Origin: a virus
IMG/VR virus record: IMGVR_UViG_3300033153_004409
Span: 1-31,204 of that record
Reading direction: 5' to 3' (one strand)
DNA: 31,204 nt
In this document: piece after piece, positions 1,286 to 20,219 of the stretch
Layout of the letters: each line of letters starts with the position of its first letter
Numbering within the stretch: position 1 is the first letter of the stretch
The notes under the pieces: model-generated
The model's input: only the letters and a program-made list of their open reading frames with translations
Told to the model about the DNA's origin: nothing
The model's database searches: none
Program-made: the position numbers and the translations under genes

Positions 1286-1305
1286 AGCTAGGCCGAAGCC
1301 TAGCT
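1286..1305 (-). terminator. Hairpin overlapping capsid gene stop codon
   Basis: A perfect 8-bp stem (AGCTAGGC / GCCTAGCT) closed by a CGAA tetraloop (TTCG on the minus-strand transcript, an exceptionally stable loop type). It includes the stop codon of the major capsid gene. No T-tract follows. It is probably a partial terminator or mRNA 3'-end stabiliser that reduces expression of the next genes relative to capsid. Confidence 0.5.
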
Positions 1306-2238: not shown

Positions 2239-2308
2239 GAGTGAGTTCCTCCTACTCTTACGGGTTCGGCCACGTCCCGCCGAGGCGGTTCGGCAGTCCT
2301 TGGTGGTT

Positions 2309-4174: not shown

Positions 4175-4238
4175 GCTGCTGCCACTTCCAACACGCCTGA
4201 GCTTACTCGTTTCCGATCGTCGCGGTCAAGGTCTCTGG

Positions 4239-5318
4239 TCACGCCGCGGTAACCTTGACCTTGTCGGGAGTCCTGACGGCCGACCCACCGATCGAATACC
4301 CAGTCAACTCGCCCTTCTTGATCTTCTTCCAAATCGCGTCGTCAAGGATCCTGGTGCGGAGTAGCCAGGTCCCCTTCTTGATCGTTTGCTCACCGCTCTT
4401 GAACTCGACCGGGGCCAGGTAGGACTCGAGCGGGAGGATCGTCGAGACGATCTGCTGGTGCATGAGGCCGAACTGTTGGTAACGCTCGAGGAACTGATAC
4501 GCGGTCTTGCGGACCTCGTCCTCCGAGTAGACGTCCTTCTGGGAGTCGATCTCCTCAGGCTCGAGGACGATCCCAAAGACCGTGCGCTCCTCCTCGGACT
4601 CGATCTTGACGATCTTGACGTCGATCGGAGCGAACGTGGGCTCCTCAACCGTCCCCGGCTCCAACTCCCCCTGCTCGGGCTGTAGTGTCCCAGGATCGGT
4701 TTGGGATATCCCAAACTTCTCGGCCTTCCCCAGGACCCCGAGGACGCCCTCGATCCTCTTCTTGATAGCCTCATCCTTGACCTGAAGCAAGAGGATCTCG
4801 AGGTCGGCGACGGCGGTCCCGACCGGGACAGGCTCGTCGCGCTTCTGCGTCGGGTCGACCACCATGTCCCGCGCCAGGTCCCCGACGACCTTGGCGATCT
4901 CGGGGAGCGAGCCCGCGAGGCGGCTAAACGCCTCCTGACCGGCCTCGTCAAGCGAGAGGACGATTCCCTCGAGCTTCGTCGCCGGGATCTCGTCCACCTT
5001 GAGGACCTGGGGGAGCGCGGCCTGTTGACCCGCCTGACGGCGAGCCTTGAGCCAAGCCGCGGCGACCTTGCGCTTGACGGCGGCGCGGTCGGAGGCGGGG
5101 ATCTGGACCGGCTGTCCTCGAAACCCAGACGACGACAGGGCCATGACGGCCGCGGCGGTGATCCTGATCGACGGCTTGCCGGCCGCGACGTCGGCCGGGG
5201 TATCGAACAGGCGCAGCTTCCACGTGCTCGGCTTGGACCCGTCGGGCACGTGGGCGTAGGCAGCGGCGGGGAACTGCACGCCGGCCTCAGTCTTCTTCGG
5301 CTCCTGCTTGGCCGCCAT
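4239..5318 (-). CDS. XkdF-like prohead protease
   Basis: Encodes 359 residues from ATG at 5318; longer frames that begin upstream overlap the previous gene and are not credible. The C-terminal 150 residues read VFGIVLEPEEIDSQKDVYS, then helix, then GLMHQ, and later LTGYSIGG. This is the pattern of the putative phage serine protease XkdF family, where His and Ser are the expected catalytic pair. Such enzymes trim scaffold and capsid during prohead maturation. The N-terminal 80 residues (MAAKQEPKKTEAG, with KVAAAWLKA helix) look like a separate module ahead of a Glu-rich linker. The linker contains FGISQT, encoded by an exact copy of the palindromic operator-like repeat at 4699-4716. Downstream it is followed by the scaffold-like gene. 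Confidence 0.75.
   Translation of the reverse strand: MAAKQEPKKTEAGVQFPAAAYAHVPDGSKPSTWKLRLFDTPADVAAGKPSIRITAAAVMALSSSGFRGQPVQIPASDRAAVKRKVAAAWLKARRQAGQQAALPQVLKVDEIPATKLEGIVLSLDEAGQEAFSRLAGSLPEIAKVVGDLARDMVVDPTQKRDEPVPVGTAVADLEILLLQVKDEAIKKRIEGVLGVLGKAEKFGISQTDPGTLQPEQGELEPGTVEEPTFAPIDVKIVKIESEEERTVFGIVLEPEEIDSQKDVYSEDEVRKTAYQFLERYQQFGLMHQQIVSTILPLESYLAPVEFKSGEQTIKKGTWLLRTRILDDAIWKKIKKGELTGYSIGGSAVRTPDKVKVTAA
4699..4716. repeat. Palindrome copy 1 (inside protease gene)
   Basis: Exact GTTTGGGATATCCCAAAC. It lies within the coding sequence of the XkdF-like protease and is read in frame as FGISQT in a probably disordered linker. It is the only copy fully inside a confident gene. Confidence 0.9.
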
Positions 5319-5326
5319 CGATGAAC

Positions 5327-5959
5327 CTACTCCGTGCAGCGCTCGCTGCGACCCATGGCCCGGTCTCGGGCCTTCTCGTACTTGGCCATGGTCGCGCTGG
5401 CGCCGCGGCGGGCCGGGACGGGCCTTTCGTCCTTGGTCAGGCGCTCGCTGCGGGTCGTGGGGGGCTTGGCCGGGGCCAGGTCGTTGGCCCACTCGACGTC
5501 GTCGGAGAGGCCGTCGCCCTTCTCGGTCTCGGTCTTCCCACCCTCAGGGGCCGCCTTGGCCCCACCCTGGGCCTTGTCGCCCTCCGAGGTGGCTCCGGCC
5601 TCGGCCACCCCGCCAGTGCCCTCCTTGCCCTTCTCCGTGACCGGAGGGGGCGCGGCCGGGGCGGGCTTAGGGTCGGTCTTGACGATCGAGAACTCCTTGG
5701 CGATCTCGTTCGTCGGCAGGACGCTGACGAAGATCCCCCCGTCGTCCTCCTCGGCCTTCTCGAGGAGGGTGTCGATCCCGTCCACGCGGTCGCAGATCGC
5801 GTCGAGCTTCGACATGGGGTCGTCGGCGGAGACGAAGCTGGTCGTTTCGGCCACCAGGGCCTTGGCGACCTTGAGGGGGTCGAGGTCGACGCGCTCGGTC
5901 TTCTCGATCTCGGTGATCGGCGCGAGAGCCTTCTTGAGTTCGTCGGCGGTGATCGGCAT
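5327..5959 (-). CDS. Acidic head-region protein of unknown function
   Basis: Encodes 210 residues. I start it at ATG 5959 (MPITADELKKALAPI), which has a GGAGG nine bases upstream, rather than at the longer upstream option. The first 100 residues contain helices rich in Leu, Asp and Glu; the second half is a Pro/Gly/Lys/Glu-rich disordered linker. Around residue 160-175 is the segment SDDVEWANDLAPAKP, a variant of the W-P-x-D-M motif shared with the proteins at 297-809 and 2309-4174. It ends in a basic helix (ATMAKYEKARDRAMGRSERC). The position between MuF-associated genes and the protease suggests an assembly factor. No family was recognised. Confidence 0.7.
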   Translation of the reverse strand: MPITADELKKALAPITEIEKTERVDLDPLKVAKALVAETTSFVSADDPMSKLDAICDRVDGIDTLLEKAEEDDGGIFVSVLPTNEIAKEFSIVKTDPKPAPAAPPPVTEKGKEGTGGVAEAGATSEGDKAQGGAKAAPEGGKTETEKGDGLSDDVEWANDLAPAKPPTTRSERLTKDERPVPARRGASATMAKYEKARDRAMGRSERCTE

Positions 5960-6033
5960 TTCGGTGATCCTCCGGTGGTCTTCTTCTACGATCAAGAGTC
6001 TAAGCGTGCTCGGGGTGGGGAGTCAAGCTAGGG

Positions 6034-6051
6034 GTTTGCGATATCCCAAAC
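6034..6051. repeat. Palindrome copy 2 (one mismatch)
   Basis: GTTTGCGATATCCCAAAC, one base off the consensus in the left arm. It lies in the short gap between the stop at 6057 and the gene starting at 5959, about 75 bp upstream of that start on the transcribed strand. Confidence 0.85.
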
Positions 6052-6056
6052 CAGTC

Positions 6057-6386
6057 CTACCAGGATCCCCGCTTGGCGAGCGCGTCGAGGTCGACGACGA
6101 GACCCGACAGCTTCGTCCGCAGGGCCAGGGCCAGGTTGTCCTTGATCCTCACCTGGCTCCACCCGAGGTCGTTCCTCATGGTGTCGACGAGTTTCTTGCA
6201 GACGTCGGTCCGCTCCTTGATCTCGGCCTGAGTCGGGTCTGTCTTCATGCCCGTCGAGGGGTGCATGAAACTCGACTCCACCACGAGAGCCACGATCGGG
6301 TACATGACAGACCAGAATTCGCGGTAGGCTCGCCGCTGATCGCCTCGGTTGAAGTCCTCGTTGATCTTGATCAGTGGTCCCGTCAT
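6057..6386 (-). CDS. Hypothetical protein in head operon
   Basis: Encodes 109 residues from ATG at 6386, overlapping the stop of the previous gene as ATGA, so probably translated by coupling. The sequence (MTGPLIKINEDFNRGDQRRA onward) is mainly helical with a central hydrophobic helix (FWSVMYPIVALVVESSF) that is too polar around its ends to call a membrane segment with confidence. The C-terminal half is charged and helical. No known family was recognised. It and its overlapping partner at 6383-6769 lie directly downstream of the MuF-like gene. Confidence 0.65.
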   Translation of the reverse strand: MTGPLIKINEDFNRGDQRRAYREFWSVMYPIVALVVESSFMHPSTGMKTDPTQAEIKERTDVCKKLVDTMRNDLGWSQVRIKDNLALALRTKLSGLVVDLDALAKRGSW

Positions 6387-6769
6387 GGCTTCACCTTTTC
6401 GCTCGGATCTTCAACCTCCGGGTAGGGAGGTCGCACCTTCCAGCCCGCGTTGGGCCAGATCGCGCTCGCGACTGCAAACGCACCCGTCGCGGTCTTGTTC
6501 AGGTCTCGAGACAGAACCGCAATCTGCGAGAGACCCCCGTAGGGAGAGATCGTGTCTCTCGGTCCTCGCTCCTCACGGAGGAACTCGACTGCGGCCTTCC
6601 AGACAGGCTTGAACCTGGCTGGGACCTTGATCGAAGCGTCGACATCGTACCCCTTGTTCCAGGTCACCTCGATCTCGACGACTCGGTCACGATCCCACAC
6701 GGCCAAAACGGCCTTCTTCTCCTTAGAGGCCAACGAATCCTCCCCTGGCTTGGCGGGTGACTTCGCCAT
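6383..6769 (-). CDS. Hypothetical protein overlapping the MuF-like gene
   Basis: Encodes 128 residues from ATG at 6769. Its start lies 46 bp inside the end of the MuF-like gene. The body has alternating strands (KKAVLAVWDRDRVVEIEVTW) and a middle helix (FKPVWKAAVEFLREERG), ending in a Pro/Glu-rich tail. If the MuF C-terminal domain acts as a toxin or protease, a small gene overlapping its 3' end is the classic position for a cognate immunity or chaperone protein. That is speculation from layout only. Otherwise it is an unknown head-operon protein. Confidence 0.65.
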   Translation of the reverse strand: MAKSPAKPGEDSLASKEKKAVLAVWDRDRVVEIEVTWNKGYDVDASIKVPARFKPVWKAAVEFLREERGPRDTISPYGGLSQIAVLSRDLNKTATGAFAVASAIWPNAGWKVRPPYPEVEDPSEKVKP

Positions 6770-8933
6770 TGATCATCGAGACCATGTAGCCGAGAAACTC
6801 CTCGACCGCTGAGTGATCCTTGGCGATCTGTCGGCTCACGTTCGACAGGTTGCCGCCGAACATCTCGCTGAACATGGTGACGACTTCAGACCCCCCGTCG
6901 CTGTAGTCTTTGCCCATGTAGGGACTAGCCCACTTGTCCTCGCGACTCTTTTCACCCGGGCCGTAGCCGACCATCTGCTTTCTCGGTCCTGGATCGCGCG
7001 TCTTGATCCGCGCCGACCAGAACGAATCGTCGCGGGTCGAACTTGGATTCGACCCGCCGTGCCACCGCGGGACGATTGCGTGCGACTCGATCGAATGGGC
7101 AAACTCATGATGGAAGGCTTGGCGATCCGTGTAGCCGAAATATCGAAAATCATCTGAGTTGTGAGCCCTAACCGAGCTGGGCATTTTGTAGATGTTCCTA
7201 TTCCTCATCAGGGCTTGCTCGGCCATGGGTCCCCAAGAGTCGAACGCCTCGCCCGCCCACTTCCTCAGGTCCTTCTTGTCAGCCGCAGATACTTTCCCCT
7301 TAGCCCCAGTAAAGAGCTTCAGATGCTCCTTGCCGGGCTTGACCATGGCGACTACGTCCTTCTGGAACTTCTTCTTCCTCGCGGCGCGTTCGGCCTGGGG
7401 GATCGCCTTCGCGCCCAGGCGTCGAGCCACCCGCAGGATCTCCTTGCTCGCGTTGGCCCTGGCATCGAAGGCATCGAACGTAGTAGCCGTGCCGGGGTCC
7501 TTGCCGATCTTGACTGCCTTGTTCCAGGCCGCGCGGAGCTTCTTGTCGTTGGCGATCATGCCTCGGCCAATCTTCGCGAACGCCTCGGCGGTCTCGATCC
7601 CGAACTGGTCTACCTTGCCTTGCTTGTCGGAACCAGAGCCGAACAAGCGATGCTCGGCACTGAGTGGGCCCTTGTGCATCGCCCCCGGAGGAAGACCACG
7701 GCCATCACGAATCTGCCCAAGCACGGCCTTGCGCTTCTCCAATGCTGTCCCGACCGCGCTGATCGGATCCGGTCCTGGGTTGTAGGGATCGGTCGGCTTC
7801 GGCGTAGGCGCCTTGGGAGCGATGGTGGCGATAGGTGGACGAACACTCGTCGCGGGCAACGGAGGAGGAGTGGGGGCCTCGGTCGCCCCCACCGGGGGAG
7901 AGATCGGGGACGCCGACGACATGACCGGCACAACGGTCGTCCTGCAGCGCATGTGAAAAGGGGGCATATTGACTCCCTTCGCATTCATGCCAGCAGGAGA
8001 GACTCGGTTCCACCCGCCGCCCTGAGCGCGAGTCGCGATCGTCCCATGCTGATTGCTGATCGTCCCTCCCCTGACCTGCATGAACGGCGTCGCAGCCTTA
8101 ACCCCGTCGAGGTCCTCCGCGGCCTCCATGGAGTCAAAGGCGTTCAGGGCGGACTCTACGCTGAGGATCGTTCCATCGAGCATTCTGCACACCTCGGTCG
8201 TGCGTTTATCCATCACCGCGACGACCTCGAACTGCGTCACCCCGTTCGAGGCGTAGGTGGCCGCGGCCGAGAACGACCTGGCGCGGTTGACGTGGACGGC
8301 CGCGACCGTGTCCCAGTAGTTGCGATTGATGGCTGTGTTTCTGAACTCGGTCCTGAGTTGTGCTCCGATCTCCCTCGACCCGAGCCCCTCTGAGAGACCC
8401 CGTTGCATCACGTCCTGCGAGCGAGCCCGGAACCGACCGGCCTGCCGCTCGTACTCGGGAGAGAAGAAGATCGACGTCGAGTCGTTGATGGCCGCGATGG
8501 CCTGCTTGTTCTTCAACGCGAACACGGGGTCGACCCCAAACACCTTGTGCCTGGCCCCGAGCTTCTGATGAACGTCGTCGACGATCCTGTTCGTGTTCGT
8601 GTCCAGAATCCCCCTCACGCTCGGAGAGAACATCGAAGGGAGGCCAGCCATCAGGTTCGACATGGCCTTGACCGCGTCCCGGCGCTGACTCAGGCTCACT
8701 CCCCTCCAGTTGATGTTCGTGCTCGCAAGAAGCCCGTCCCGGACGGCCCTCGAGTTGAGTGCCTGACCAACCTGTCTCTGGATCAATCGAGACTCGCGCA
8801 GGATCTCCTGGATGAATCCGTCTTCGGTCAAGACCGAGGCAAGCCCGGGTTGCTTGGTCGCCTTCCCGACAAGCGCGTGGGCGAGCCAGTCAACGTGAGC
8901 GAGTGAGTCGAGGAGTGCGAGCGAAAGCGTCAC
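6723..8933 (-). CDS. MuF-like minor head protein fused to HExxH metallopeptidase-like domain
   Basis: Encodes 736 residues from a GTG at 8933 that overlaps the epimerase stop (GTGA); an in-frame ATG 48 bp upstream is inside that gene and less likely. The N-terminal half is helical. The Phage_Mu_F signature follows: AVHVNRARSFSAAATYASNG, then VMDKRTTEVCRMLDGTIL and MPPFHMRCRTTVVP. A long Pro-rich linker (about residues 335-390) leads to a second region. Near residue 608 this carries FHHEFAHSIE, a perfect HExxH zinc-binding motif, and about 75 residues on GGSEVVTMFSEMF, which could supply the third ligand glutamate. MuF proteins bind the portal and are packaged inside heads. Fusions of MuF to effector domains are known, so this domain may be delivered into the host or act in head maturation. 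The function of the peptidase domain is inferred. Confidence 0.8.
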   Translation of the reverse strand: MTLSLALLDSLAHVDWLAHALVGKATKQPGLASVLTEDGFIQEILRESRLIQRQVGQALNSRAVRDGLLASTNINWRGVSLSQRRDAVKAMSNLMAGLPSMFSPSVRGILDTNTNRIVDDVHQKLGARHKVFGVDPVFALKNKQAIAAINDSTSIFFSPEYERQAGRFRARSQDVMQRGLSEGLGSREIGAQLRTEFRNTAINRNYWDTVAAVHVNRARSFSAAATYASNGVTQFEVVAVMDKRTTEVCRMLDGTILSVESALNAFDSMEAAEDLDGVKAATPFMQVRGGTISNQHGTIATRAQGGGWNRVSPAGMNAKGVNMPPFHMRCRTTVVPVMSSASPISPPVGATEAPTPPPLPATSVRPPIATIAPKAPTPKPTDPYNPGPDPISAVGTALEKRKAVLGQIRDGRGLPPGAMHKGPLSAEHRLFGSGSDKQGKVDQFGIETAEAFAKIGRGMIANDKKLRAAWNKAVKIGKDPGTATTFDAFDARANASKEILRVARRLGAKAIPQAERAARKKKFQKDVVAMVKPGKEHLKLFTGAKGKVSAADKKDLRKWAGEAFDSWGPMAEQALMRNRNIYKMPSSVRAHNSDDFRYFGYTDRQAFHHEFAHSIESHAIVPRWHGGSNPSSTRDDSFWSARIKTRDPGPRKQMVGYGPGEKSREDKWASPYMGKDYSDGGSEVVTMFSEMFGGNLSNVSRQIAKDHSAVEEFLGYMVSMINGEVTRQARGGFVGL

Positions 8934-9793
8934 CGATTCAGAGCCTCGATCCCGGCCCTCACGTCCACCCGCGGACTCCACGGCAGGTCGTCGTTCAGGC
9001 TGACGAAGTACCTCTGATCGTGCAACCGCCAGGGGCCGAACGAGGCGATCTCTCCCCCCAGGAGGTCTATCACATCAGAGAACGACCGTGCGTTCTCGGA
9101 CCCTCCACCGACCACGTATGAACCCGGCTCGAGGTCGCCCCGGAGGGCCACCAGGTAGCACCTCACAAGATCGTCAACGTGAAGAAGGTCTCTCACCTGG
9201 GTGCCGTCACCGAAGCAGCAGATCGGCCGACCGAGGCGGATCTGACGAGCCACGAACGAGACCCAGCCCTGATCTATCGTGCCCTGTTGCTCGAGCCCGT
9301 AGATACAGCTCTGGTGGAACACGTAGCCCCGATCGACAAGCTCCCTCACATAGAGGGCACCGGTCGCCTTGCTGACCCCGTACGGGGTCCTGGGGTCGAT
9401 CGGATCGTGACGGCTCGTGGGCTCTCTCTTGTCCTCGAGGTCGCCGTAGACCTTGTTCGTGCTCGCGTAGATCACGCGCGCCCCACAGGACCGCGCCCAC
9501 AAGCAGACCTCGAACGTGCCCGCAGCGTTCGCGAGGAAGTCCGCACGGGGCGCGTCATAGGATCTGGTGACGGCGGTCTGGGCCGCCAAGTGGATGACAG
9601 CGTCACACGCCCGGATCGGCAGCTCGGGCAGGTCGCGCACGTCGGCCCTGTATCGCTCCTCGAATCCGCTGGGCCAGGCCGCCGAGGGCTTCACGAAACT
9701 GTCAAGACCTACGACCTCGTGGCCTTCCCCGACGAGACGACTGCACGCCGCTCTCCCGATGAATCCTGCCGCGCCAGTCACCAGGACCCTCAC
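8930..9793 (-). CDS. NAD-dependent sugar epimerase/dehydratase (SDR family)
   Basis: Encodes 287 residues from ATG at 9793, overlapping the glycosyltransferase stop as ATGA. It is an extended short-chain dehydrogenase: nucleotide-binding GAAGFIG at residues 7-13, HLAAQ near 68-72, STNKVYG at 111-117 and the catalytic YGVSK (Tyr138, Lys142). The S/T-N-K-V-Y-G variant is characteristic of CDP-paratose/CDP-tyvelose epimerase-like enzymes, though the substrate here is unknown. It lies between a glycosyltransferase and the MuF-like gene, so the pair probably makes and transfers a modified sugar. At 287 residues it is a little shorter than many family members (about 310-350). A role in decorating virions, DNA or the host surface is inferred. 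Confidence 0.85.
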   Translation of the reverse strand: MRVLVTGAAGFIGRAACSRLVGEGHEVVGLDSFVKPSAAWPSGFEERYRADVRDLPELPIRACDAVIHLAAQTAVTRSYDAPRADFLANAAGTFEVCLWARSCGARVIYASTNKVYGDLEDKREPTSRHDPIDPRTPYGVSKATGALYVRELVDRGYVFHQSCIYGLEQQGTIDQGWVSFVARQIRLGRPICCFGDGTQVRDLLHVDDLVRCYLVALRGDLEPGSYVVGGGSENARSFSDVIDLLGGEIASFGPWRLHDQRYFVSLNDDLPWSPRVDVRAGIEALNR

Positions 9794-11193
9794 CGACCCG
9801 ACCTCACGAACTGCTCGCCCTCGGCGAACAGGATCTCACCCCCGGCCTGGCGAGCCAGCCTGATCACCTTCGCCATGGGGAAACTCTGGTTACTCACCTT
9901 CTGTCGTCCGTTGACCCGCATGCGCGTGAGGTCGTTGTAGAAGGCCCTGGCCTTCTTCCCTCTCCTCGGATACGAGGTCAGAAGGTCGCCGACCTTGGCG
10001 ACGAACTTCTTGTCCGTGCTTGGCTGGTGTCGCGCACTTGCCTGCTCGAACAAGTCGGCGTATCGCTCGACCCACAGGGAGCGCGTGTAGTTCTCGTTGA
10101 CGTGCTTGCGGACCACGCCTCCCAACCTGCGACGCTCGAGAGGGCTGGCGAGGAGCTTCCGCAACATGACCTTCTGTTGGTCGACGTCTCGGAACAGGTA
10201 GGGATACCTGTTTCCTGCCGTCTTGCCCGTGATCTGAGGGAAGGTCACCCCGTCCGGGGCGATCAAGGGCTGACCGTGGGCCATGGACTCAATCGCGGAG
10301 ATGCAGAAGGTCTCGTGCAGGCTGTTCATGACGTTGAGGTGGCACCCGGATAGCGCCTCCAGGTAGTCCCTACGGTCCTTGCAGAGTCGAACCTCCACGA
10401 ACGGCATCGCCCGGATCGCAGACGAGTTCTCGGTCGTGTTGTTCATGTACCGGACCCGGAATCTCACTCCCTCGTCCCAGAGGTCCTTGAGGACGTCAAA
10501 GGTCGTGCGCCACTGCTTGTAGCCCTGTAGGCGATGGTTGTAGGCGATGATGGGCAGGTCGACCTTGTGCTGGACCATGGGAAGATCGGCCTCGAGGGGA
10601 CCGTAGTCGATCCTCACCGAGCTGTCCTCAATCTTCTTGCACGACTCCTCCGAGAGTCGATCTCGGGCCTCCTCGAGCAACATGAACTTGCAGTGGTCGC
10701 TGTTGAACACGTTGACGTCGGCGTTGACGGCCCCGACGAACTGCGCCCACAGGACATGCTCCATGGCGTGCATGGGGTAAGGCAGAGACCTGTGGATGGC
10801 GTAGTTGTGAGCCACGATCACGGCCGGTCGGCCCGCGTCCTCAAACGTGGAATCGCTGGAGTGCTTGATCTGCGCGGCGACCTCGACCAGGTTGCACCAG
10901 ACCAGGTCGAAACCGAACCGCCTCAGCAGGGTCGTGTACCAGGTCCCGTCGAACGTGACCGCGTTGACCATCTTCCGAGTGCTGATTCTCTGCGGGACGC
11001 GCGTCACGTTCGGTAGAGAGAAGAAGCCGTCTGGCGAGTAAGCGAATCCACTCTTGTCATCGGGAAAGACCACGACGAAATGGTGGGGGAGCCCGGCCTC
11101 GTGAAACCCCCTGATGAGCGAGGAGTAGATCACGTAGTTCGAATCCGCGTTCAGCTCCCGCTTCGAGTACATGGGCTGGACGAGAACGATCAC
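9790..11193 (-). CDS. GT-B glycosyltransferase (GT4-like)
   Basis: Encodes 467 residues from a GTG at 11193 that overlaps the previous stop (GTGA). The longer ATG-started reading adds 15 residues inside the ParB-like gene. The N-terminal domain begins VIVLVQPMYSKREL and has Rossmann-like strands. The C-terminal domain holds HETFCISAIESMAHGQPLIA, the E-x7-E nucleotide-sugar site of GT4-type retaining enzymes, near residues 295-305. A basic C-terminal extension of about 80 residues ends GGEILFAEGEQFVRSGR, and FAEGEQF also occurs near the end of the upstream ParB-like protein. It presumably transfers a sugar made with the adjacent epimerase. The acceptor is unknown: virion protein, modified DNA or host glycan are possible. 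Confidence 0.82.
   Translation of the reverse strand: MIVLVQPMYSKRELNADSNYVIYSSLIRGFHEAGLPHHFVVVFPDDKSGFAYSPDGFFSLPNVTRVPQRISTRKMVNAVTFDGTWYTTLLRRFGFDLVWCNLVEVAAQIKHSSDSTFEDAGRPAVIVAHNYAIHRSLPYPMHAMEHVLWAQFVGAVNADVNVFNSDHCKFMLLEEARDRLSEESCKKIEDSSVRIDYGPLEADLPMVQHKVDLPIIAYNHRLQGYKQWRTTFDVLKDLWDEGVRFRVRYMNNTTENSSAIRAMPFVEVRLCKDRRDYLEALSGCHLNVMNSLHETFCISAIESMAHGQPLIAPDGVTFPQITGKTAGNRYPYLFRDVDQQKVMLRKLLASPLERRRLGGVVRKHVNENYTRSLWVERYADLFEQASARHQPSTDKKFVAKVGDLLTSYPRRGKKARAFYNDLTRMRVNGRQKVSNQSFPMAKVIRLARQAGGEILFAEGEQFVRSGR
9807..9829. repeat. 23-bp direct repeat, copy A
   Basis: Matches 11318-11340 at 22 of 23 positions, in the same orientation. It encodes part of FAEGEQF at the 3' end of the glycosyltransferase gene. 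The two copies bracket almost the whole glycosyltransferase gene. Confidence 0.75.
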
Positions 11194-11810
11194 CGCTTGA
11201 CTCTCACCTTGAACGTGACATCCCTCTCCTTGCACCACTCGAGCATGTCCTGCTTGAACACCGAATCGAACTGGTTGGTCGGTACCGACACCTCAACCAC
11301 GACCACGTCGGCCCTCGCGAACTGCTCGCCCTCCGCGAACCCGGGCGACTCGTCATCAATGCCGAGATCCACGACCGATCCCCCCATGATGTCGTCGAAC
11401 CTGAGGTCATTCGAGAGATCGGGAATCTCGACCCGGATCTCCTCGAGGATCTCGAATAGATCGTCCGACCAGTCACCGGCTGCGTGGGGATTGTTGAGAG
11501 CCAGGTTGAGAGCCTTCTCCTTGACCTCGCCCAGATCAACCACGACCACGTCGGTCGTGGTCTCCGGGGGGAGCGTCTTGAGCCGCTGGTGTCCCCCGAC
11601 GATTCTCTTGGTCCTCTTGTTCCACACGATCGGCTGCGTGAGCCCGAACTCGTCCACGCTCGCCTGGAGTCCCCCGAGGGCCTTGTCGGTGATCTCCCTC
11701 GGGTTGTAGCCGGATGGAACGATCTCCGAGACCTTCATGCGGTAGATGGGGAATCCGTTGATCTCTCCGACGGCCTTCCCGTTAGCCCGCCTCCGCGGTT
11801 TCTTCTTCAC
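11190..11810 (-). CDS. Solitary ParB/Srx-like domain protein
   Basis: Encodes 206 residues from a GTG at 11810, ten bases after the portal stop. Residues about 15-140 form a ParB/sulfiredoxin-like nuclease domain: SGYNPREIT, FGLTQPIVWN, IVGGHQRLK and VDLGEVKEKALNLALN. This region is strikingly similar to the N-terminus of the methyltransferase fusion at 15574-16650, so the two are paralogues. Here the methyltransferase part is replaced by about 60 residues (FAEGEQFARADVVVVEVSVP and so on) with alternating strands and a helix that I do not recognise. In phages such domains are often attached to DNA methyltransferases; alone they may bind or nick DNA or hydrolyse nucleotides. The function here is unknown. 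Confidence 0.78.
   Translation of the reverse strand: MKKKPRRRANGKAVGEINGFPIYRMKVSEIVPSGYNPREITDKALGGLQASVDEFGLTQPIVWNKRTKRIVGGHQRLKTLPPETTTDVVVVDLGEVKEKALNLALNNPHAAGDWSDDLFEILEEIRVEIPDLSNDLRFDDIMGGSVVDLGIDDESPGFAEGEQFARADVVVVEVSVPTNQFDSVFKQDMLEWCKERDVTFKVRVKR
11318..11340. repeat. 23-bp direct repeat, copy B
   Basis: Partner of 9807-9829 with one difference. It lies within the 3' part of the solitary ParB-like gene, again encoding FAEGEQF. Confidence 0.75.
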
Positions 11811-11820
11811 CGTTCATCCT

Positions 11821-14064
11821 CTAATCGTCTTCGGGTTGCTCTAGCTTGGAGGCGTCGAAGAACTCGTCCTTGCCGGCCTCGACCTCCTCCTGGATCGAGC
11901 GGCGCAAGTAGGCGAGCGCGACGGCCGCGTTGTGGGCACGTTGGCGTCGCTTCGACATGGGGGCCGTGAAGGCGACCTCGTGCGCGTGCCCGCCCTCGCC
12001 CCCGTGGGGGGCCGTGGTGATCTCGAACTTACCCCCGTCCTTGAACGGGACCGGGGCGACCGAGTGCGAGTGACCGTCCTCGCCGCCCGGCATGACCATG
12101 ACTCGGATCTGGGCCCCCTCTCGAACGGCGGCGAACCCGTGGAGGTGTCCCTCGCTCTCGCTCGTCTTCCCCCTCCCGACAAGGTCTCCCACGGCGGACT
12201 CGACCTCGTCGGCCGCCCTCGATCCCTCGTCGCCCGGCTCCGCGCCCGGGAGCGCGCCTTGTCGGGCCGCGGCGACCGCCAGCTTGGGCGGGATCTTGGC
12301 CCAGTCCTCGTCCTTGTAGTCGAGGTCGGTCGAGAAGGCGTCTCCAAGGAGGACGCGAGCCTCGTTGGGGACGATCGCGCCGGCCTCGAGGGACTTCTTG
12401 ACGTTGTCGACAAGATCGTTGGGGAGTCGCTGGACAGGCGCGTTCGTGACGAATCGCCAGAAGTGGACCTTCAAGTTCGTGAGAAAGTGTCGATCCATGA
12501 CCTTGTCGAACTGATCCCGGACAGGCTGGTAGATTTGCTCCTCCGCGAGTGCCTTGGCAGTTTCGGCGGTTGACCGATTCATGTCCTTCGTGTCACCGGT
12601 CAGGATCGGTGGCTGGCGGAAGCTCCTCCCGATCTTCGTGGTGTTGTTGGCGTCGTACTCCTGGAACAGCGCATCCTGGATCTGGTTCCCCAGGAGAGGC
12701 TTCAGCTCGATCCTTGTTTTCCCCGAGTGCTCCAGGTCTCCCTCGGAGGCGTCGACACCCGCCGGGAGAGCCTCAAGGATCATGATCTTGTGGTAGTTGG
12801 CTCGTCCCTTGATGTGGTCCTCGATGTACGACTCGATCTTCGTCACCGACTCCTCGGAGACACGCCCGCCCGAGACGAGCATGACCATGGCCGGGATCGC
12901 CTTGTTGTCGAAGTACAAGAAGTTCACTTCCTCGGCAGCGCGTGAACCGATCACGGCCAGTAGCGCGCCGATCCACCTCGGAATCCCGTACGCGCTGACC
13001 TCGCTCGGAATCTCCCAGTGGAAGAACTCGTTCGCGGGCTTGGCCTTCTCGCCCTCGTTGGCGTCGCTCTGCAACTCCTTGACCGACTCGTAGTACCGGC
13101 CGGTGTCGCGAGAAACCACGCGCGGGTCACCGAACTCCTTGTAGTAGATCCGGGTCGATCCCGTCATCCGCATGAATCGCCGAAAGAACCGGTTGACCTT
13201 GATGGTCTCGAAATGGACCAGGTTCTTACGGATCACCATGCTGGCCTCGATGGGCTTCCTGTCGGCGCGCACGAGCCGCACATGCACGAACGGGACACCG
13301 TAGACCTGGCTGATCTTGGACTCGACATCAGCGGGGTCTTCGCGGATCACCTCCCACCCGGCGTTGCCGAGAAGCTCGCGGCTGCGCCGCATGGCCGTGC
13401 GTAGCTCGACGAACGTGTTGACCGGGTTGATGAACTCGAAGAACGGCTCGATCTTCGCCTTCTCGATCGTCGCGATCCTCTCCCAGAGGATCTTCCTCGC
13501 CTGGACCTCGTCGATGCTCGGGGTGTTGTCGTCGATCGTGGCCTGGTCGAGTTCCATGAGATCGTCAGGCATGCCCTTCTCGAGGGACTCGACGAGCATG
13601 ACGTCTCGGATCAGGTTGTCTGCCTCGGGACTCGTGAAGTCAATCACGGGCTCGAACCGGTGGCCGAACCCGTCCACGTTGGTCGCCATGGCGTCGATGT
13701 TCTGACGAAGCGACCCGCTGTTCTCCTCCAAGCTACACAGGACCTCGAAGTCGTAGGGCGACATCAGGGTGTCGTCGACCATGTCGGTCCGACCGTACTG
13801 GAGTAGGTCGTCATCGTCCTCGTGCGTGGTCGGGGCCTGAAGCTCCCCGGCCTTGGTAAGCCTGGTTCTGACCTGCTTCGAGGCGTCTTTCTTCGCGGAC
13901 TCGGTTAGGAGGCCCATGCGCTTCCCGACCGACACCACCGCCGTCCGCATCGAACTCCACCTGGCGTGCTTCTCAGCCTGCTCGGCGTCGAGGCGGTCGA
14001 GCATCTCGGCCGGCGCGGCGGGTCCTACGATCACGGCCTTCGCGGCCCCGTTGTCTCGACTCAC
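11821..14064 (-). CDS. Portal protein
   Basis: Encodes 747 residues. I take the GTG at 14064 as the start because an AGGAGG lies six bases before it. The longer upstream frame simply translates the palindrome as FGISQT and lacks a good ribosome binding site. Typical portal features follow: SPYDFEVLCSLEENSGSLRQ, WVIRED-type strand (GWEVIREDP), RIYYKEFGDPR, the FFHWEIPSEVSAYGIPRW segment, then NKAIPAMVMLVSGG and DRHFLTNLKVHFW. The dodecameric portal is the DNA channel and packaging motor dock. The last 120 residues contain three G-H-x-H motifs (EGHLHGF, DGHSHSV, GGHAHEV) that could bind metal. It is followed closely by the ParB-like gene rather than directly by MuF, which is unusual. Confidence 0.88.
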   Translation of the reverse strand: MSRDNGAAKAVIVGPAAPAEMLDRLDAEQAEKHARWSSMRTAVVSVGKRMGLLTESAKKDASKQVRTRLTKAGELQAPTTHEDDDDLLQYGRTDMVDDTLMSPYDFEVLCSLEENSGSLRQNIDAMATNVDGFGHRFEPVIDFTSPEADNLIRDVMLVESLEKGMPDDLMELDQATIDDNTPSIDEVQARKILWERIATIEKAKIEPFFEFINPVNTFVELRTAMRRSRELLGNAGWEVIREDPADVESKISQVYGVPFVHVRLVRADRKPIEASMVIRKNLVHFETIKVNRFFRRFMRMTGSTRIYYKEFGDPRVVSRDTGRYYESVKELQSDANEGEKAKPANEFFHWEIPSEVSAYGIPRWIGALLAVIGSRAAEEVNFLYFDNKAIPAMVMLVSGGRVSEESVTKIESYIEDHIKGRANYHKIMILEALPAGVDASEGDLEHSGKTRIELKPLLGNQIQDALFQEYDANNTTKIGRSFRQPPILTGDTKDMNRSTAETAKALAEEQIYQPVRDQFDKVMDRHFLTNLKVHFWRFVTNAPVQRLPNDLVDNVKKSLEAGAIVPNEARVLLGDAFSTDLDYKDEDWAKIPPKLAVAAARQGALPGAEPGDEGSRAADEVESAVGDLVGRGKTSESEGHLHGFAAVREGAQIRVMVMPGGEDGHSHSVAPVPFKDGGKFEITTAPHGGEGGHAHEVAFTAPMSKRRQRAHNAAVALAYLRRSIQEEVEAGKDEFFDASKLEQPEDD

Positions 14065-14077
14065 CTGAACCCTCCTG

Positions 14078-14095
14078 GTTTGGGATATCCCAAAC
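14078..14095. repeat. Palindrome copy 3 (upstream of portal gene)
   Basis: Exact GTTTGGGATATCCCAAAC, ending 14 bp upstream of the portal GTG start and immediately before its AGGAGG site. A protein bound here would block transcription or translation entry into the portal gene. Confidence 0.9.
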
Positions 14096-14126
14096 ATCCT
14101 ACCCCGTGGACACAGCGCCCCACCAC

Positions 14127-15092
14127 TCAATCAGTCACGCCCCCGTCGAGGATCCTCTGCCGCGCGAGCTGGATATATTCGGCGTTGGGCTCGACGCCGA
14201 TGTACCTGCACCCGAGACGCCGCGCCACCAGGCCGGTCGTCCCACTCCCGTTGAACGGATCCAGGACCGTGGGGGGCACGCGCCTCGCCTTGGTGTGCTT
14301 GCAGGTGGGACGCCAGCCGGTTGTGATGTGCTTGAACTCCCCGCTCGTCCACGCCTTCGCCGAGGCAGTAGCCGCTCCCGCGTTCTTGTTCGCTACGCCT
14401 TCTCCTTCAAGCGGTGGTCGCTTACCACTCCATGCCCCACCACCAACGGTCTCGACTACTCTCTCCCACGGCGCCCCACACTTGCCGCAGACCCCGTGCG
14501 CGGACGTGCCCGCCTTCAGACAGGGCTCCACGAGCCTCTCAGGAAATGTGGCGAAGTGGGCCGCCGCGTAGGGCTGTGGGTTGATGAGCCAGACCGTCCT
14601 CAAATTGCGGCCCGCGGGGTGAGTGAACGAGTCTCGCTTCGACCCGAATCCCGCGTTGATCCCCTCGGTGAGATCGCCTTTCGGCGCATCCCTCCCGTCC
14701 GCGTTCGCGTACTCCTCGGGAGTTGCTTCGCGACCGGTCCGTTCCCGCACAGCGTCCTGGTCGTAGAAATACCGAGGGGCCTTCGTGAGCAAGTAGAGCA
14801 TCTCGTGCCCGTCCGTGGGGCGGTCCCGCACCGACGCAGGCATCACGCTGCCCGAGTACTTGTCTGAGAGGCTGCACCCCTTGGCCCAGACGATCTCACT
14901 CCTCACCCACCACCCATCAGCCTGGAGGGCGAGCGCACAGCGGGCCGGCATAAGGAAGTTATCCTTCGGCTTCACGCCACATGGCCGGAAGAACTTCCGT
15001 AGGTGCTTCGGGATCTCCGTCTCTCGCAGTTGGAGCTTCATGGTAGAATGTCCCCAGATTGGAGCATTGAATGCCGAGCCCGAAAGTCCCAT
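14127..15092 (-). CDS. DNA methyltransferase, C-terminal half
   Basis: Encodes up to 321 residues from ATG at 15092; an alternative ATG at 15041 removes 17 residues that come from the inserted region. It carries KPKDNFLMPARCALALQADG and VRDRPTDGHEMLYLL, both standard in phage N4/N6 amino-methyltransferases. A CGKCGAPWERV zinc-like motif follows, and near the end DPFNGSGTTGLVARR, the AdoMet-binding motif I. It lacks the catalytic DPPY/SPPY motif, which is encoded in the other half at 15574-16650. Between the halves lies an antisense HNH gene. Motif order (IV before I) is that of beta-class enzymes. Whether the two pieces assemble or the enzyme is dead cannot be seen from sequence. Confidence 0.8.
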   Translation of the reverse strand: MGLSGSAFNAPIWGHSTMKLQLRETEIPKHLRKFFRPCGVKPKDNFLMPARCALALQADGWWVRSEIVWAKGCSLSDKYSGSVMPASVRDRPTDGHEMLYLLTKAPRYFYDQDAVRERTGREATPEEYANADGRDAPKGDLTEGINAGFGSKRDSFTHPAGRNLRTVWLINPQPYAAAHFATFPERLVEPCLKAGTSAHGVCGKCGAPWERVVETVGGGAWSGKRPPLEGEGVANKNAGAATASAKAWTSGEFKHITTGWRPTCKHTKARRVPPTVLDPFNGSGTTGLVARRLGCRYIGVEPNAEYIQLARQRILDGGVTD

Positions 15093-15613
15093 GCCCGTCT
15101 TGTGGGGAACCCAAGAGCAAGAAAGCGAAGACGTGTCGCTCGTGCTCGAAGCCCTACGCGCGAACCCCGGAACACAGAGCTAAGATGACCGAATCGACAA
15201 CCGGCATCGATCGACCATGGCTCAACGGGCGTAAGCGGTCGAAGGCATCGCGCACGAAAGCCGCCGCAGCGTGGACGCCGAAGATGCGGGCAGAGGCACG
15301 GAAGCGTGGCCTCGCGAATGCCGAAGACATGGAGTGGCTGGCGAAGGTCGCGGCAAGTGTAAGTGGGAAGAAGAACCCGAACCATCAGGACAAAGGGAAG
15401 GCGACGCCCTATGCTCCTGGGTTCGGTCGCGGTTGGCGGAAGCGTGTGCGGTCGCGGTCGAACACATGCGAGAGGTGCGGACGGGAGGTCGCGTACACGC
15501 TTCTGCTCCACCATCGCGACCACGGACACTCCGACCACAGCCCGGGAAACCTGGAGATTGTCTGCGCTCGCTGTCATCGACGTGAGCACTCCGCGAGTCC
15601 GCGCAAAACGTAG
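15071..15613 (+). CDS. HNH homing-type endonuclease inserted in methyltransferase gene
   Basis: Encodes 180 residues from ATG at 15071 on the strand opposite to its host gene. An N-terminal zinc-ribbon-like pair (CPSCG at 8-12, CRSC at 22-25) is followed by a basic helical region with NUMOD3-like repeats. The HNH core then has C133-x2-C136, HH at 147-148, N160 and C165-x2-C168-H169. Such enzymes cut intron-less or intron-containing target genes and spread by repair. Its start and stop both overlap the two methyltransferase fragments, so it sits exactly at the break. A TAGAAT box at 15044-15049 could be its own -10 element. Antisense orientation argues against a standard intron-encoded arrangement. 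Confidence 0.85.
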   Translation: MPSPKVPCPSCGEPKSKKAKTCRSCSKPYARTPEHRAKMTESTTGIDRPWLNGRKRSKASRTKAAAAWTPKMRAEARKRGLANAEDMEWLAKVAASVSGKKNPNHQDKGKATPYAPGFGRGWRKRVRSRSNTCERCGREVAYTLLLHHRDHGHSDHSPGNLEIVCARCHRREHSASPRKT

Positions 15614-16650
15614 GCTCGCTCCTTGTTGGTGAGATCCGCCCGCACTTCCATCATGTCGTCAGCCTGACTGGCGTAGCTCGATCCCATATTCAGCCAACAC
15701 GTGCCGTCCTGGCGGAGGACCCGCCGGACCTCGCGAAACACGTCGACCAGGTGAACGAGAAACAGCTCCGGCGTAGGCTCGAGCCCGAGGCAACCGCGCC
15801 AGGCATCGCAACGGAGACAGAACTGACCTGCATCCACTTCTCTCTGTCTGACGTGTTCTCTCTCCCTCTTAGAACCAGGGTCTACCCCGGACTGATCAAA
15901 GGGACCAGATCCATCGTCGTCCTCGCCCCGTATCGAGCTGTTATTGCCCACCCCTTTCAGCTTTTTCTTCTTCCCCCATTTGTGCTCGCACTCCGAGTCA
16001 CCGCCCCACACGGTGTCTTCGATTTTATAGTCCCGAAGTCCCCAGTAGGGGGGAGAACAGCAAATCGCGTGGATCGAGTTGTCGGGCAACTTCCTCAACG
16101 CCTCTGGGCACGAACCGTGGATGATCCAGACACCCTTCGGGTCCTTGAGGGGCTCGCGTTTCTCTGGTTCCTCGGGTCCCGTCCCCCCGGTGTCGAGTCC
16201 GAGATCAATGTCGAGCCCGTCGAAGAGAAGATCCTCGGCCAGGTCGGGAATCTCGACCCGAATCTCCTTGAGTAGCTCGTTCAGAGAATCGGTCCAGTCG
16301 CCGGCCGCGTGGGGATTGTTCAGGGCTATGTTAAGGGCCTTCTCTTTGACCTCGCCCAGGTCAACCACAATCACGTCGGTCTCGGAGTCCGGCTCGAGCG
16401 TCTTGAGTCGCTGGTGGCCCCCGACGACGCGACTCGTCCGCTTGTTCCACACGATCGGCTGTGGCAGCCCGAACTCCCCGACCGACGCCCTGAGTCCCCC
16501 GAGGGCACGCTCGGTAATCTCGCGCGGGTTATAGGCGGCGGGGTCGAGACTCGAGACCCTCATGCGGCGGATCGGAAACCCATTGATCTCGCCGACGGCC
16601 TCGCCCGGCAGGGGCTTCCTTCTCACCCGCCTCTTGGTCTTCTTGGCCAT
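15574..16650 (-). CDS. ParB-like domain/DNA methyltransferase fusion, N-terminal part
   Basis: Encodes 358 residues from ATG at 16650 (MAKKTKRR, with AGAGAGG upstream). The first 150 residues are the ParB/Srx-like domain (AAYNPREIT, VVGGHQRLK), paralogous to 11190-11810. The methyltransferase part then follows: IIHGSCPEALRKL, the catalytic motif IV CCSPPYWGLRDY, a Cys-pair (FCLRCDAWRG) and LRQDGTCWLNMGSSY. The frame runs into a stop at 15574, 40 bp inside the antisense HNH gene; the remaining motifs are in the fragment at 14127-15092. A phage methyltransferase of this type would protect phage DNA from host restriction or mark it for replication. The truncation is discussed in the findings. 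Confidence 0.82.
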   Translation of the reverse strand: MAKKTKRRVRRKPLPGEAVGEINGFPIRRMRVSSLDPAAYNPREITERALGGLRASVGEFGLPQPIVWNKRTSRVVGGHQRLKTLEPDSETDVIVVDLGEVKEKALNIALNNPHAAGDWTDSLNELLKEIRVEIPDLAEDLLFDGLDIDLGLDTGGTGPEEPEKREPLKDPKGVWIIHGSCPEALRKLPDNSIHAICCSPPYWGLRDYKIEDTVWGGDSECEHKWGKKKKLKGVGNNSSIRGEDDDGSGPFDQSGVDPGSKREREHVRQREVDAGQFCLRCDAWRGCLGLEPTPELFLVHLVDVFREVRRVLRQDGTCWLNMGSSYASQADDMMEVRADLTNKERAYVLRGLAECSRR

Positions 16651-17441: not shown

Positions 17442-17567
17442 ATGAAACAGATCAGGATCGAGAAGGTGCGCGAGGCCCGGAGGAAGATCGTCCGCGGTCT
17501 CTACGGGGAACGCGAGTGGCGCGTCGTGGTCGAGCGCCTCCTGCGCGCCCTAAGGAAGGCCCGATAG
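17442..17567 (+). CDS. Short basic peptide
   Basis: Encodes 41 residues, rich in Arg and Lys (MKQIRIEKVREARRKIVRGL onward), with AGGAGGA four bases before the ATG at 17442. The peptide looks like one or two amphipathic basic helices and could bind nucleic acid. Its 3' end overlaps by 67 bp with the convergent Cys-rich gene at 17501-17815, so at least one of the two may be non-functional. No family is recognisable at this length. Confidence 0.5.
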   Translation: MKQIRIEKVREARRKIVRGLYGEREWRVVVERLLRALRKAR

Positions 17568-17815
17568 AGCTTGTCCACGAACCCGGGGTCGCGGAGCCGG
17601 CTCCCATAGCGGCGCAGGTTGATCCCGCCGCGTTTCATCTCGGCGAGCCGCGTCTTGAGCCCGCGGAGCGGGTGGTGGACGCAGTTGCCGGGCGCGCAGT
17701 GCTTGGCCCGCGCGGCGGGGCAGTACTCGACCACGGCGAGCCGGGCGACGATCTCTCGGCAGACTCCGCGCGAGGTCCGCTTGTCGCAGCTCCTCCTCTT
17801 TGTGGTCTTGCTCAT
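17501..17815 (-). CDS. Small Cys-rich basic protein downstream of HNH gene
   Basis: Encodes 104 residues from ATG at 17815, overlapping the HNH stop as ATGA, so it is probably translated by coupling. It has five Cys (C10, C19, then YCPAARAKHCAPGNCVHH) with two adjacent His, suggesting a zinc-binding patch. The C-terminal half is a strongly basic helix ending in an Arg/Ser/Thr tail. The spacing is not that of a named zinc finger I know. Cotranscription with an HNH endonuclease suggests an accessory cargo module. The 3' end runs antisense to the short basic peptide at 17442. Confidence 0.55.
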   Translation of the reverse strand: MSKTTKRRSCDKRTSRGVCREIVARLAVVEYCPAARAKHCAPGNCVHHPLRGLKTRLAEMKRGGINLRRYGSRLRDPGFVDKLYRAFLRARRRRSTTTRHSRSP

Positions 17816-18375
17816 GGAACATGCTTCCAGTTCTTCCGGTGGACTATGTGACTGATCACTGGCTGAGTAACTCCGAACTCGAGTGCCAAGCTCGTCTGGA
17901 ACTCACCGCTGGCTGCTCGCTCACGGATCTCGACCACGTCTGCCTTGGTGAGTTTGGTCCAACTTCGACCCCGGGCTACTCGGTCCCGAGCATTGTCCAG
18001 ATCCGTTCCTACATACAGGTGAGAAGGTCGGACGCAAGGCGGGTTATCACAACGATGTAGAACATGAAGACCCTCGGGCACGGGCCGATTCCTCGTGAGT
18101 TCCCAACTCACGCGATGAGTCCTCGCCATACGACCCTTCGATCCAATCTGTCCGTAGCCCCACTTCGACCTGCAGCCAGTCCAGACCCAGCAGCCGGGGC
18201 CGCGCTCAACCCTCGACCAGAGCCGATCCCAGAGAGGCCTCGAGAACCTGTGTCGGTTGGAGCATTTGCGCGAGCAGAACCGGGACCGCGCATATCTCTT
18301 CTCGGAGTAGTGACGTCGCTTGATTGGACCCCCGCAGTGCTCGCAAGATCGCGTGCTACGATCTCTCTCGGCCAT
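17812..18375 (-). CDS. HNH endonuclease (HNH_3 type) with C-terminal HTH
   Basis: Encodes 187 residues from ATG at 18375, with GAGGAGG six bases upstream. An N-terminal zinc ribbon (C11-x2-C14, C34-x3-C38) is followed by the HNH_3 core: GCWVWTGCRS, YGQIG, THRVSWEL, then HVLHRCDNPPCVRPSHLYVG with His104, His107, Asn111 and His119. The C-terminal 45 residues (KLTKADVVEIRERA then EFGVTQPVISHIV) form a helix-turn-helix, as is usual for phage HNH homing endonucleases that read a specific target. It lies directly upstream of, and divergent from, the terminase gene, a frequent site for free-standing homing endonucleases. Confidence 0.88.
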   Translation of the reverse strand: MAERDRSTRSCEHCGGPIKRRHYSEKRYARSRFCSRKCSNRHRFSRPLWDRLWSRVERGPGCWVWTGCRSKWGYGQIGSKGRMARTHRVSWELTRNRPVPEGLHVLHRCDNPPCVRPSHLYVGTDLDNARDRVARGRSWTKLTKADVVEIRERAASGEFQTSLALEFGVTQPVISHIVHRKNWKHVP

Positions 18376-18465: not shown

Positions 18466-18789
18466 ATGGCTGTCGGTGGGATCGTGAAGCGCGACGAGTG
18501 GGAGTTCGGTCGCTGGCTGAAGAAACAGACCGGGCGGGCAGCAGGGATCCTCGAGGGCTGGGGCATGGACCCCAAGGACCTCCTCAGCACAGAGGTCGGG
18601 TGGCTGATCGCTCTTGGGTGTTTTGAAGGCAAGGGGCTCGAGTTCGACCCGTTCCAGCGCGCTGCCACCTCAAGGACCGGCACATGTCGGTCTGTGTCAG
18701 CTACAACCTCGACGACGCCAAGGAGAAGGTCGCGCTCGTCAAAGAACTACACGACGAGCTTCCGCTCGAGTTCCAGAAGAAGATGGTGA
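18466..18789 (+). pseudogene. Terminase large subunit, N-terminal fragment (frame disrupted)
   Basis: From ATG 18466 (GGAGG upstream) the frame encodes about 65 residues that look like a terminase N-terminus (KRDEWEFGRWLKKQTG, then GWLIALGCFEGKG and FDPFQR). After FQR at about 18660 the frame becomes nonsense rich in Ser/Thr/Arg and stops at 18789. The sense frame resumes two bases off phase as RCHLKDRHMSVCVSYNLDDA. Normally about 35-40 residues with the Walker A (KxRQxGxS type) sit between these points, and they are absent. This is consistent with an internal deletion of a non-multiple of three. Confidence 0.65.
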
Positions 18790-20219
18790 TCGACTCCAAG
18801 ACCGTCGTGGGATTCGAGAGCAACTCATCGAGGCGCCGGGTCAGCCGAGTCGTCTCCCACCCGGCCAAGCCTCCCCGGGGGAAGAGTGGCGACGTCTACC
18901 TGGACGAGCTTGGGCACTGCCAAAACGATCGCTTGATCTACGCGGGCGCGACGGCCCTGATCTCCCGCTCGGGCGGCCAGCTCACGGTCGGGTCAACCCC
19001 GCTTGGCAAGCGCGGCACGTTCCACGCCATCCACACCGACCCAGTCGAGTACGCGGGCTATTGGCGACAGCGCGTCCCGTGGTGGCTGTGCAAACACTTC
19101 TCGAAGATCGTAGACGACCCCAATCTCTGCGCCCTCGCCGAGACGCTCCCGACCGAGCTGCGCGTTGAGCGGTACGGGACAGGCGAACTCCAGGACCAGT
19201 TCAACGCGCTCCCGATCGAAGACTTCCGGCAGGAGTTCGAATGCGCGTGGCAGGACGAGCGCGTCTCGTTCTTCGCATACGATCTAATCCTCCCGTGCTG
19301 TCAGAAAGACGCGAGTAAGATCCCCATCTACGACAACCTCGACCAGCTCGTCCAGGTGGCCCCCAAGCTCGGCCGCCTGTTCGCCGGGTTCGACGTCGGG
19401 CGGAGCAAACACCCGAGCGAGCTGACGATCTTCGAGAAGCAGGGCGAGACCTACACGCTCCGCTACCAGGAGCAGTACCGGGAAACGCCGTTCCCGAAGC
19501 AACGCGCCCGCCTGATCCGAGTCGTCGAGGCCCTCGGGGAGAACCTACGCAGGTTCAGGATCGACTCCACCGGCATGGGGAAGAATCTCGCGGAGGATCT
19601 TCAGGAGCGATTCGGTCGGAAGATTGTCCAGATCGACTTCACCCGCCAGTCCAAGGAGGCCATGGCGAACAACGTCAAGATCCTACTCCAGGAACGGAAT
19701 CTGGTCCTACCCCGAGACCGATCCCTGATCGCCCAGATCCACTCGATCAAGCAGAAGATCACCTCGGCTGGTAACGCGATCTTCGACGCGGTTCGGAACC
19801 GGTTCCATCACGCAGACAAGTTCTGGGCCCTCGCGTTGGCCGTGTTCAAGAAGCGGAAGAAGCACGCGGCCCTGATTGAGGTCCGGGCGCGGGTCGTGGG
19901 AGAGAAGACTCAAGAGGATCCGATCCCTGACGCCCCGGCCCCGCCCAAGGGGATCGTGGAGGCCGTGTTCGTGCTCCCCGGCCAGAGCGTCCGGGGCTCG
20001 ACCGAGTGCCCGGCCGGGGAGGCGATCATCAAAGAGGCGTCCCGGCTCGCTCAGGTCCGGGCTGCTCCGCTCGACGCCCTCGAACAGAAGGGGCGGGCCC
20101 TCGTGACGGCCATGCGGGTCTGGGAGCGGTCCGGGGACCACGAGCGGGCCCTGGTGCTCTCGGCCGAGTACCAACGGGTCCGGCGAGAGATCCGCCGTCG
20201 CCAAGCTCTCGCCGGATAG
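18684..20219 (+). CDS. Terminase large subunit, C-terminal ATPase part and nuclease
   Basis: Encodes 511 residues from ATG 18684 in a frame different from the upstream fragment. It begins MSVCVSYNLDDAKEKV, the strand after Walker A. It has Walker B VYLDE (Asp74, Glu75), the coupling motif TVGSTPLGKRG (101-111), and an RNase H-like nuclease with Asp237 (FAGFDVGRS), Asp294 (FRIDSTGMGK) and Asp378 (HHADKFWALAL). About 115 extra residues follow, ending in a basic helix. The enzyme pumps DNA into proheads and cuts concatemers. Without Walker A the ATPase should be inactive, while the nuclease looks intact. The gene is on the strand opposite the other head genes. Confidence 0.85.
   Translation: MSVCVSYNLDDAKEKVALVKELHDELPLEFQKKMVIDSKTVVGFESNSSRRRVSRVVSHPAKPPRGKSGDVYLDELGHCQNDRLIYAGATALISRSGGQLTVGSTPLGKRGTFHAIHTDPVEYAGYWRQRVPWWLCKHFSKIVDDPNLCALAETLPTELRVERYGTGELQDQFNALPIEDFRQEFECAWQDERVSFFAYDLILPCCQKDASKIPIYDNLDQLVQVAPKLGRLFAGFDVGRSKHPSELTIFEKQGETYTLRYQEQYRETPFPKQRARLIRVVEALGENLRRFRIDSTGMGKNLAEDLQERFGRKIVQIDFTRQSKEAMANNVKILLQERNLVLPRDRSLIAQIHSIKQKITSAGNAIFDAVRNRFHHADKFWALALAVFKKRKKHAALIEVRARVVGEKTQEDPIPDAPAPPKGIVEAVFVLPGQSVRGSTECPAGEAIIKEASRLAQVRAAPLDALEQKGRALVTAMRVWERSGDHERALVLSAEYQRVRREIRRRQALAG

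Follow-up and report, generated by a model that had tools for sequence, protein, structure and literature searches.

The window analyzed here is a complete IMG/VR viral record of 31,204 bases (IMGVR_UViG_3300033153_004409), which is classed as linear and contains no ambiguity letter (N) at any position. Its terminase large subunit gene, terL, occupies positions 18466-20216 of the plus strand and is divided between two reading frames, which join at 18657-18660. Its N-terminal part opens with the ATG at 18466 and reads MAVGGIVKRDEWEFGRWLKKQ...GLEFDPFQR in the frame of position 18466. From ARCHLKDRHMSVCVSYNL onward the sense follows the frame of position 18657, continuing as ARCHLKDRHMSVCVSYNLDDAKEKV... 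to the stop codon at 20217-20219; no single continuous reading frame covers the gene. Read past the junction, the first frame is out of phase and ends at 18787-18789. The codon-position GC content is strongly gene-like in both halves of terL (0.66/0.44/0.81 in the N-terminal one), suggesting that the change is either recent or did not happen in nature.

The C-terminal part scores 43.1 bits with the Pfam Terminase_6C profile (cut-off 22.6), and the match to the PHROGs profile phrog_22646 starts at profile position 82. The Terminase_6N score is 20.9 bits against a cut-off of 22, with the match beginning at profile position 90. The Walker B motif (VYLDE in GDVYLDELGH), the coupling motif (VGSTPLG) and the RNase H-like nuclease motifs (FDVG, IDSTG, HHADKFW) are all present and aligned with those of the relatives, and the nuclease acidic residues D237, D294 and D378 (numbered in the 511-residue frame) are invariant in the alignment. 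The initial annotation, made from the letters of the window, had described these elements as intact, and the alignment agrees with it. The Walker A P-loop (K/A-x-R-Q/R-x-G/A-x-S/T) is absent both from the terL site and from the rest of the window in six frames.

The closest relatives found are L125 (IMG/VR 3300009506_002692; 59% identity) and L005 of genome G001 (3300009702_000035; 57%). In the window, terL and the portal and head genes (1303-14130) lie on opposite strands. L125 has the same divergent order with the same small gene in between, while terL and portal are co-directional in L005, L006, L007 and most other relatives. Because of this majority arrangement it was suspected that misassembly had put terL on the wrong strand, but the order in L125 rules this out.

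Several further features of the window and its relatives were observed. A ParB-like/DNA methyltransferase gene (14130-16650, minus strand) is split by an insert of about 550 bp (approximately 15040-15590); an HNH endonuclease ORF of opposite orientation (15071-15613, plus strand; HNH 5.8e-6, weak NUMOD3) lies there, and the insert matches no intron family. Two ParB-like paralogues flank the portal gene (11393-11692 and 16218-16517; 78% identity over 300 nt). The portal of G001 (L087, 10967-14386, minus strand) carries a stretch of about 340 extra residues, probably an intein, that matches LAGLIDADG (7.4e-5) and is absent from the portal of the window. The perfect 18-bp palindrome GTTTGGGATATCCCAAAC occurs in eight copies with at most one mismatch (window positions 4699, 6034, 14078, 20317, 22617, 23686, 29707 and 30684). 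None is expected by chance, and among the 193 loci compared it was found only in the window's own copy; it is a candidate binding site, operator-like or otherwise phage-specific. A 111-nt repeat is present in four copies between the genes of the right half (20354, 20901, 23091 and 23719; 60-79% alike to the reference), which are perhaps promoter regions.

Table. Positions of terL parts and neighbouring features in the window, and of the frame-change sites in Myxococcus terL genes.
Feature	Position	Strand	Description
Small unknown gene	17501-17815	-	L005 and L125 likewise have a homologue next to terL and divergent from it
HNH endonuclease gene (homing type, HNH_3)	17812-18375	-	Directly upstream of terL, divergent; PF13392 1.1e-9, phrog_1872 2.5e-29
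terL, N-terminal part	18466-18660	+	Opens with MAVGGIVKRDEWEF, ends with FDPFQR; 63% identity to residues 7-66 of L125 terL
Deletion junction in terL	18657-18660	+	Frame shift -1/+2; about 91 nt gone relative to L005 and L125, Walker A included
terL, C-terminal part	18660-20219	+	Pfam Terminase_6C 5.5e-11; phrog_22646 1.2e-67; alignments
Possible restart site	18672-18686	+	AAGGA, 7 nt, ATG (18684); predicted 511-residue product without P-loop
Frame-change sites of Myxococcus terL	L118 983-1020; L119 3663; L120 3906; L121 3331; L165 8535		Further loci L122, L123, L154, L155, L156, L164

The relatives were gathered by alignment-based scans of viral contigs and genomes; protein scans that used the window terL alone as a query gave no matches. 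Those from named genomes belong mostly to Myxococcales and their kin, and the clade of the window terL is common in myxobacterial genomes. With the intact L125 terL as a tblastn query, residues 7-66 align at 18478-18657 and residues 97-594 at 18657-20174, so that residues 67-96, among them the Walker A motif (residues 81-88), are missing from the window. The spacing from FQ to RCHLKDRH is 31 residues in both L005 and L125 and two bases in the window. Compared with these two relatives the loss amounts to 30 residues and one base, or about 91 nt on the assumption that the spacing in the ancestor was the usual one. A terL without Walker A and with a change of frame at 18640-18690 had been proposed in the initial annotation, and the two-piece alignment bears this out. 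That annotation put the loss at 35-40 residues (100-120 bp); the loss itself is confirmed, at the shorter length given here.

Set against the relatives, the window is shown to have a deletion, one of three causes offered in the initial annotation; the other two were a defective prophage and an assembly error. Among the 175 relative loci, 165 cover the Walker A site (122 distinct sequences), and all 165 keep the motif; it is found by pattern in 164 of them and as the variant MSRQTGKT in L180. The window alone is without it. Nor does the segment lie elsewhere in the 31 kb, a check that the initial annotation had advised: no second Walker A of the KxRQxGxS type was found in six frames, and tblastn of the relatives' missing segments against the window recovered the right flank alone, apart from matches at the level of chance. 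The N-terminal half is uninterrupted in L005 and L125, and that of the window is 58% identical to L005. Its two halves are similarly identical to L125 (63% for the N-terminal and 60% for the C-terminal one), indicating one gene and ruling out a chimera of two terL genes.

These observations make it very likely that the locus holds an ordinary divergent terL gene of the Terminase_6 type that has lost about 91 nt in one out-of-frame deletion, be it an artefact or a real event. The deletion takes out the P-loop with the part of the ATPase domain around it and shifts the frame. Ribosomes starting at 18466 would be expected to run into the wrong frame and stop at 18787-18789; no P-loop could be made from the gene as written, and the packaging motor would be dead. 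Simple loss of terL function, rather than a new mode of DNA packaging, is the most likely meaning of the lesion, as judged from the deletion, the frame change and the intact homologues of both flanks. A point against the single-deletion reading is that a 91-nt loss without long repeats would normally require reads that carry it.

The deletion may have arisen in the assembly or in the phage. We consider it about an even chance that a chimeric read, bubble resolution or a merging step in metagenome assembly lost the 91 nt, the phage itself having an intact terL. None of the relatives shares the deleted state, the remainder of terL is intact and gene-like, and the source is a viral record, 31,204 bases long and linear. 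Exact-pattern scans found no second record of the window's population, within a collection from which near-identical records may be absent. The scan of records for breaks showed a deletion of this kind only in the window and in L115, another metagenome-assembled contig, where a singleton out-of-frame loss of about 25 residues affects the terL nuclease domain (approximately 8786-8791). Against an assembly error speak the lack of ambiguity letters, the absence of a repeat common to both flanks, on which an assembler might have gone astray at the junction, and the aligned structural genes of the window, which have no frame breaks elsewhere and so argue against generally poor contig quality. The last two points speak for a real deletion of recent date in a defective or minority phage or prophage genome, perhaps by microhomology-mediated joining, which we regard as quite possible. 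The junction sits in CAGCGCGCTGCC, a GC run that permits short GC microhomology, and the methyltransferase gene split by the HNH gene is a second interrupted gene in the contig. Against a real deletion, searches of the window recognised neither integrase nor tRNA nor host gene, and the other structural genes appear intact. The weights given to artefact and to real deletion are a matter of judgement and were not computed. It is improbable that the window terL is a remnant, with an intact copy in a part of the genome outside the contig. The linear contig has 31 kb as compared with 46 kb in the relative G001, so that a part may be missing, and terL and the genes for portal and head are on opposite strands; however, L125, the closest relative, has an intact terL here in the same divergent order, and G001 has a single terL match.

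Two readings in which the gene works as written fare worse. A reduced terminase in a viable phage, with translation restarting at the ATG at 18684, a P-loop-free nuclease protein and packaging driven by a separate ATPase, is highly improbable. It has in its favour the intact nuclease residues and the AAGGA ahead of this ATG, but AAGGAC encodes a Lys-Asp pair that is conserved in the relatives, and the apparent restart site is therefore probably coincidental. Moreover, the Walker A motif is retained in every covering relative, no other terminase-type Walker A occurs in the window, and the half-domain with Walker B and the coupling motif would be kept without use. The statement in the initial annotation that packaging would need another ATPase if the lesion were real would hold only for a correct sequence and a viable phage, and nothing found here supports it. 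The chance that a programmed frameshift or an intron restores the protein is negligible. Although a conserved +1 frame change exists in terL of Myxococcus prophages, it lies elsewhere in the gene and keeps the length, whereas here residues are missing rather than interrupted and the Walker A residues are not encoded at the site. The overlap of the two terL frames holds no slippery heptamer of the X XXY YYZ type, the RNA fold is no better than that of shuffled sequences (z -0.72), and there was no Rfam match. With 30 residues lost, no heptamer and no conserved junction in the relatives, a programmed frameshift gene was rejected; a self-splicing intron was ruled out by the lack of an Rfam match and by residues that are absent, not interrupted.

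If real and viable, the window terL would call into question whether tailed phages always need the terminase ATPase for packaging. The evidence does not lead that way, and an ATPase-free packaging system is not supported. A broken hallmark gene in a single uncultivated contig gives no ground for a new packaging mechanism.

The frame change in Myxococcus terL is a more interesting lead than the deletion in the window. Across several Myxococcus species, prophages and isolates carry a terL of the same family whose reading switches between two frames at one conserved place, TGCCTTTTACGT. This sequence (TGC CTT TTA CGT) is invariant in the ten Myxococcus sequences compared, and the wider site was recovered by exact matching in 10 of 10 records. 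A +1 slip (CTT, skip T, TAC) would give E-C-L-Y-V-D-E-S, exactly the length of E-C-R-F-V-D-E-S in the unshifted relatives, and would bring back the sequence of the homologues. The TTA codon that adjoins the CTT slip is very rare, accounting for 8 of the 22,367 codons in gene-like frames nearby. The frameshift site of release factor 2 is CUU-UGA-C. The Myxococcus site may be likened to it, a rare codon standing where the stop would be. We put the site forward as a candidate programmed +1 frameshift between the ATPase and nuclease domains; no report of it was found in the literature searched, the coverage of which was incomplete.

Literature searches gave no direct parallel to the lesion in the window terL. 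Known terminases of named phages are only distant relatives, with Brevibacillus phage Emery and Thermus phage MN1 at about 33-35% identity. The terminases of these two phages and of Pseudomonas phage B3 (Mu gp28-type) have the same domain order, Walker B, coupling motif and nuclease residues as the window terL, at approximately 29-35% identity, but they are encoded in a single frame and possess Walker A. The window shares its N-terminal extension and the divergent small upstream gene with both L125 and L005, and with L125 also the orientation of terL relative to portal. In contrast to the window, the frame is unbroken in both of these and includes Walker A (KARQIGFS in L125 and KSRQIGFS in L005). 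The terL genes of Myxococcus prophages (L118-L123, L154-L156, L164 and L165) belong to the family of the window terL and are likewise read in two frames; unlike it, they have the change, of the +1 type, between the ATPase and nuclease domains, lose no residues and retain Walker A.
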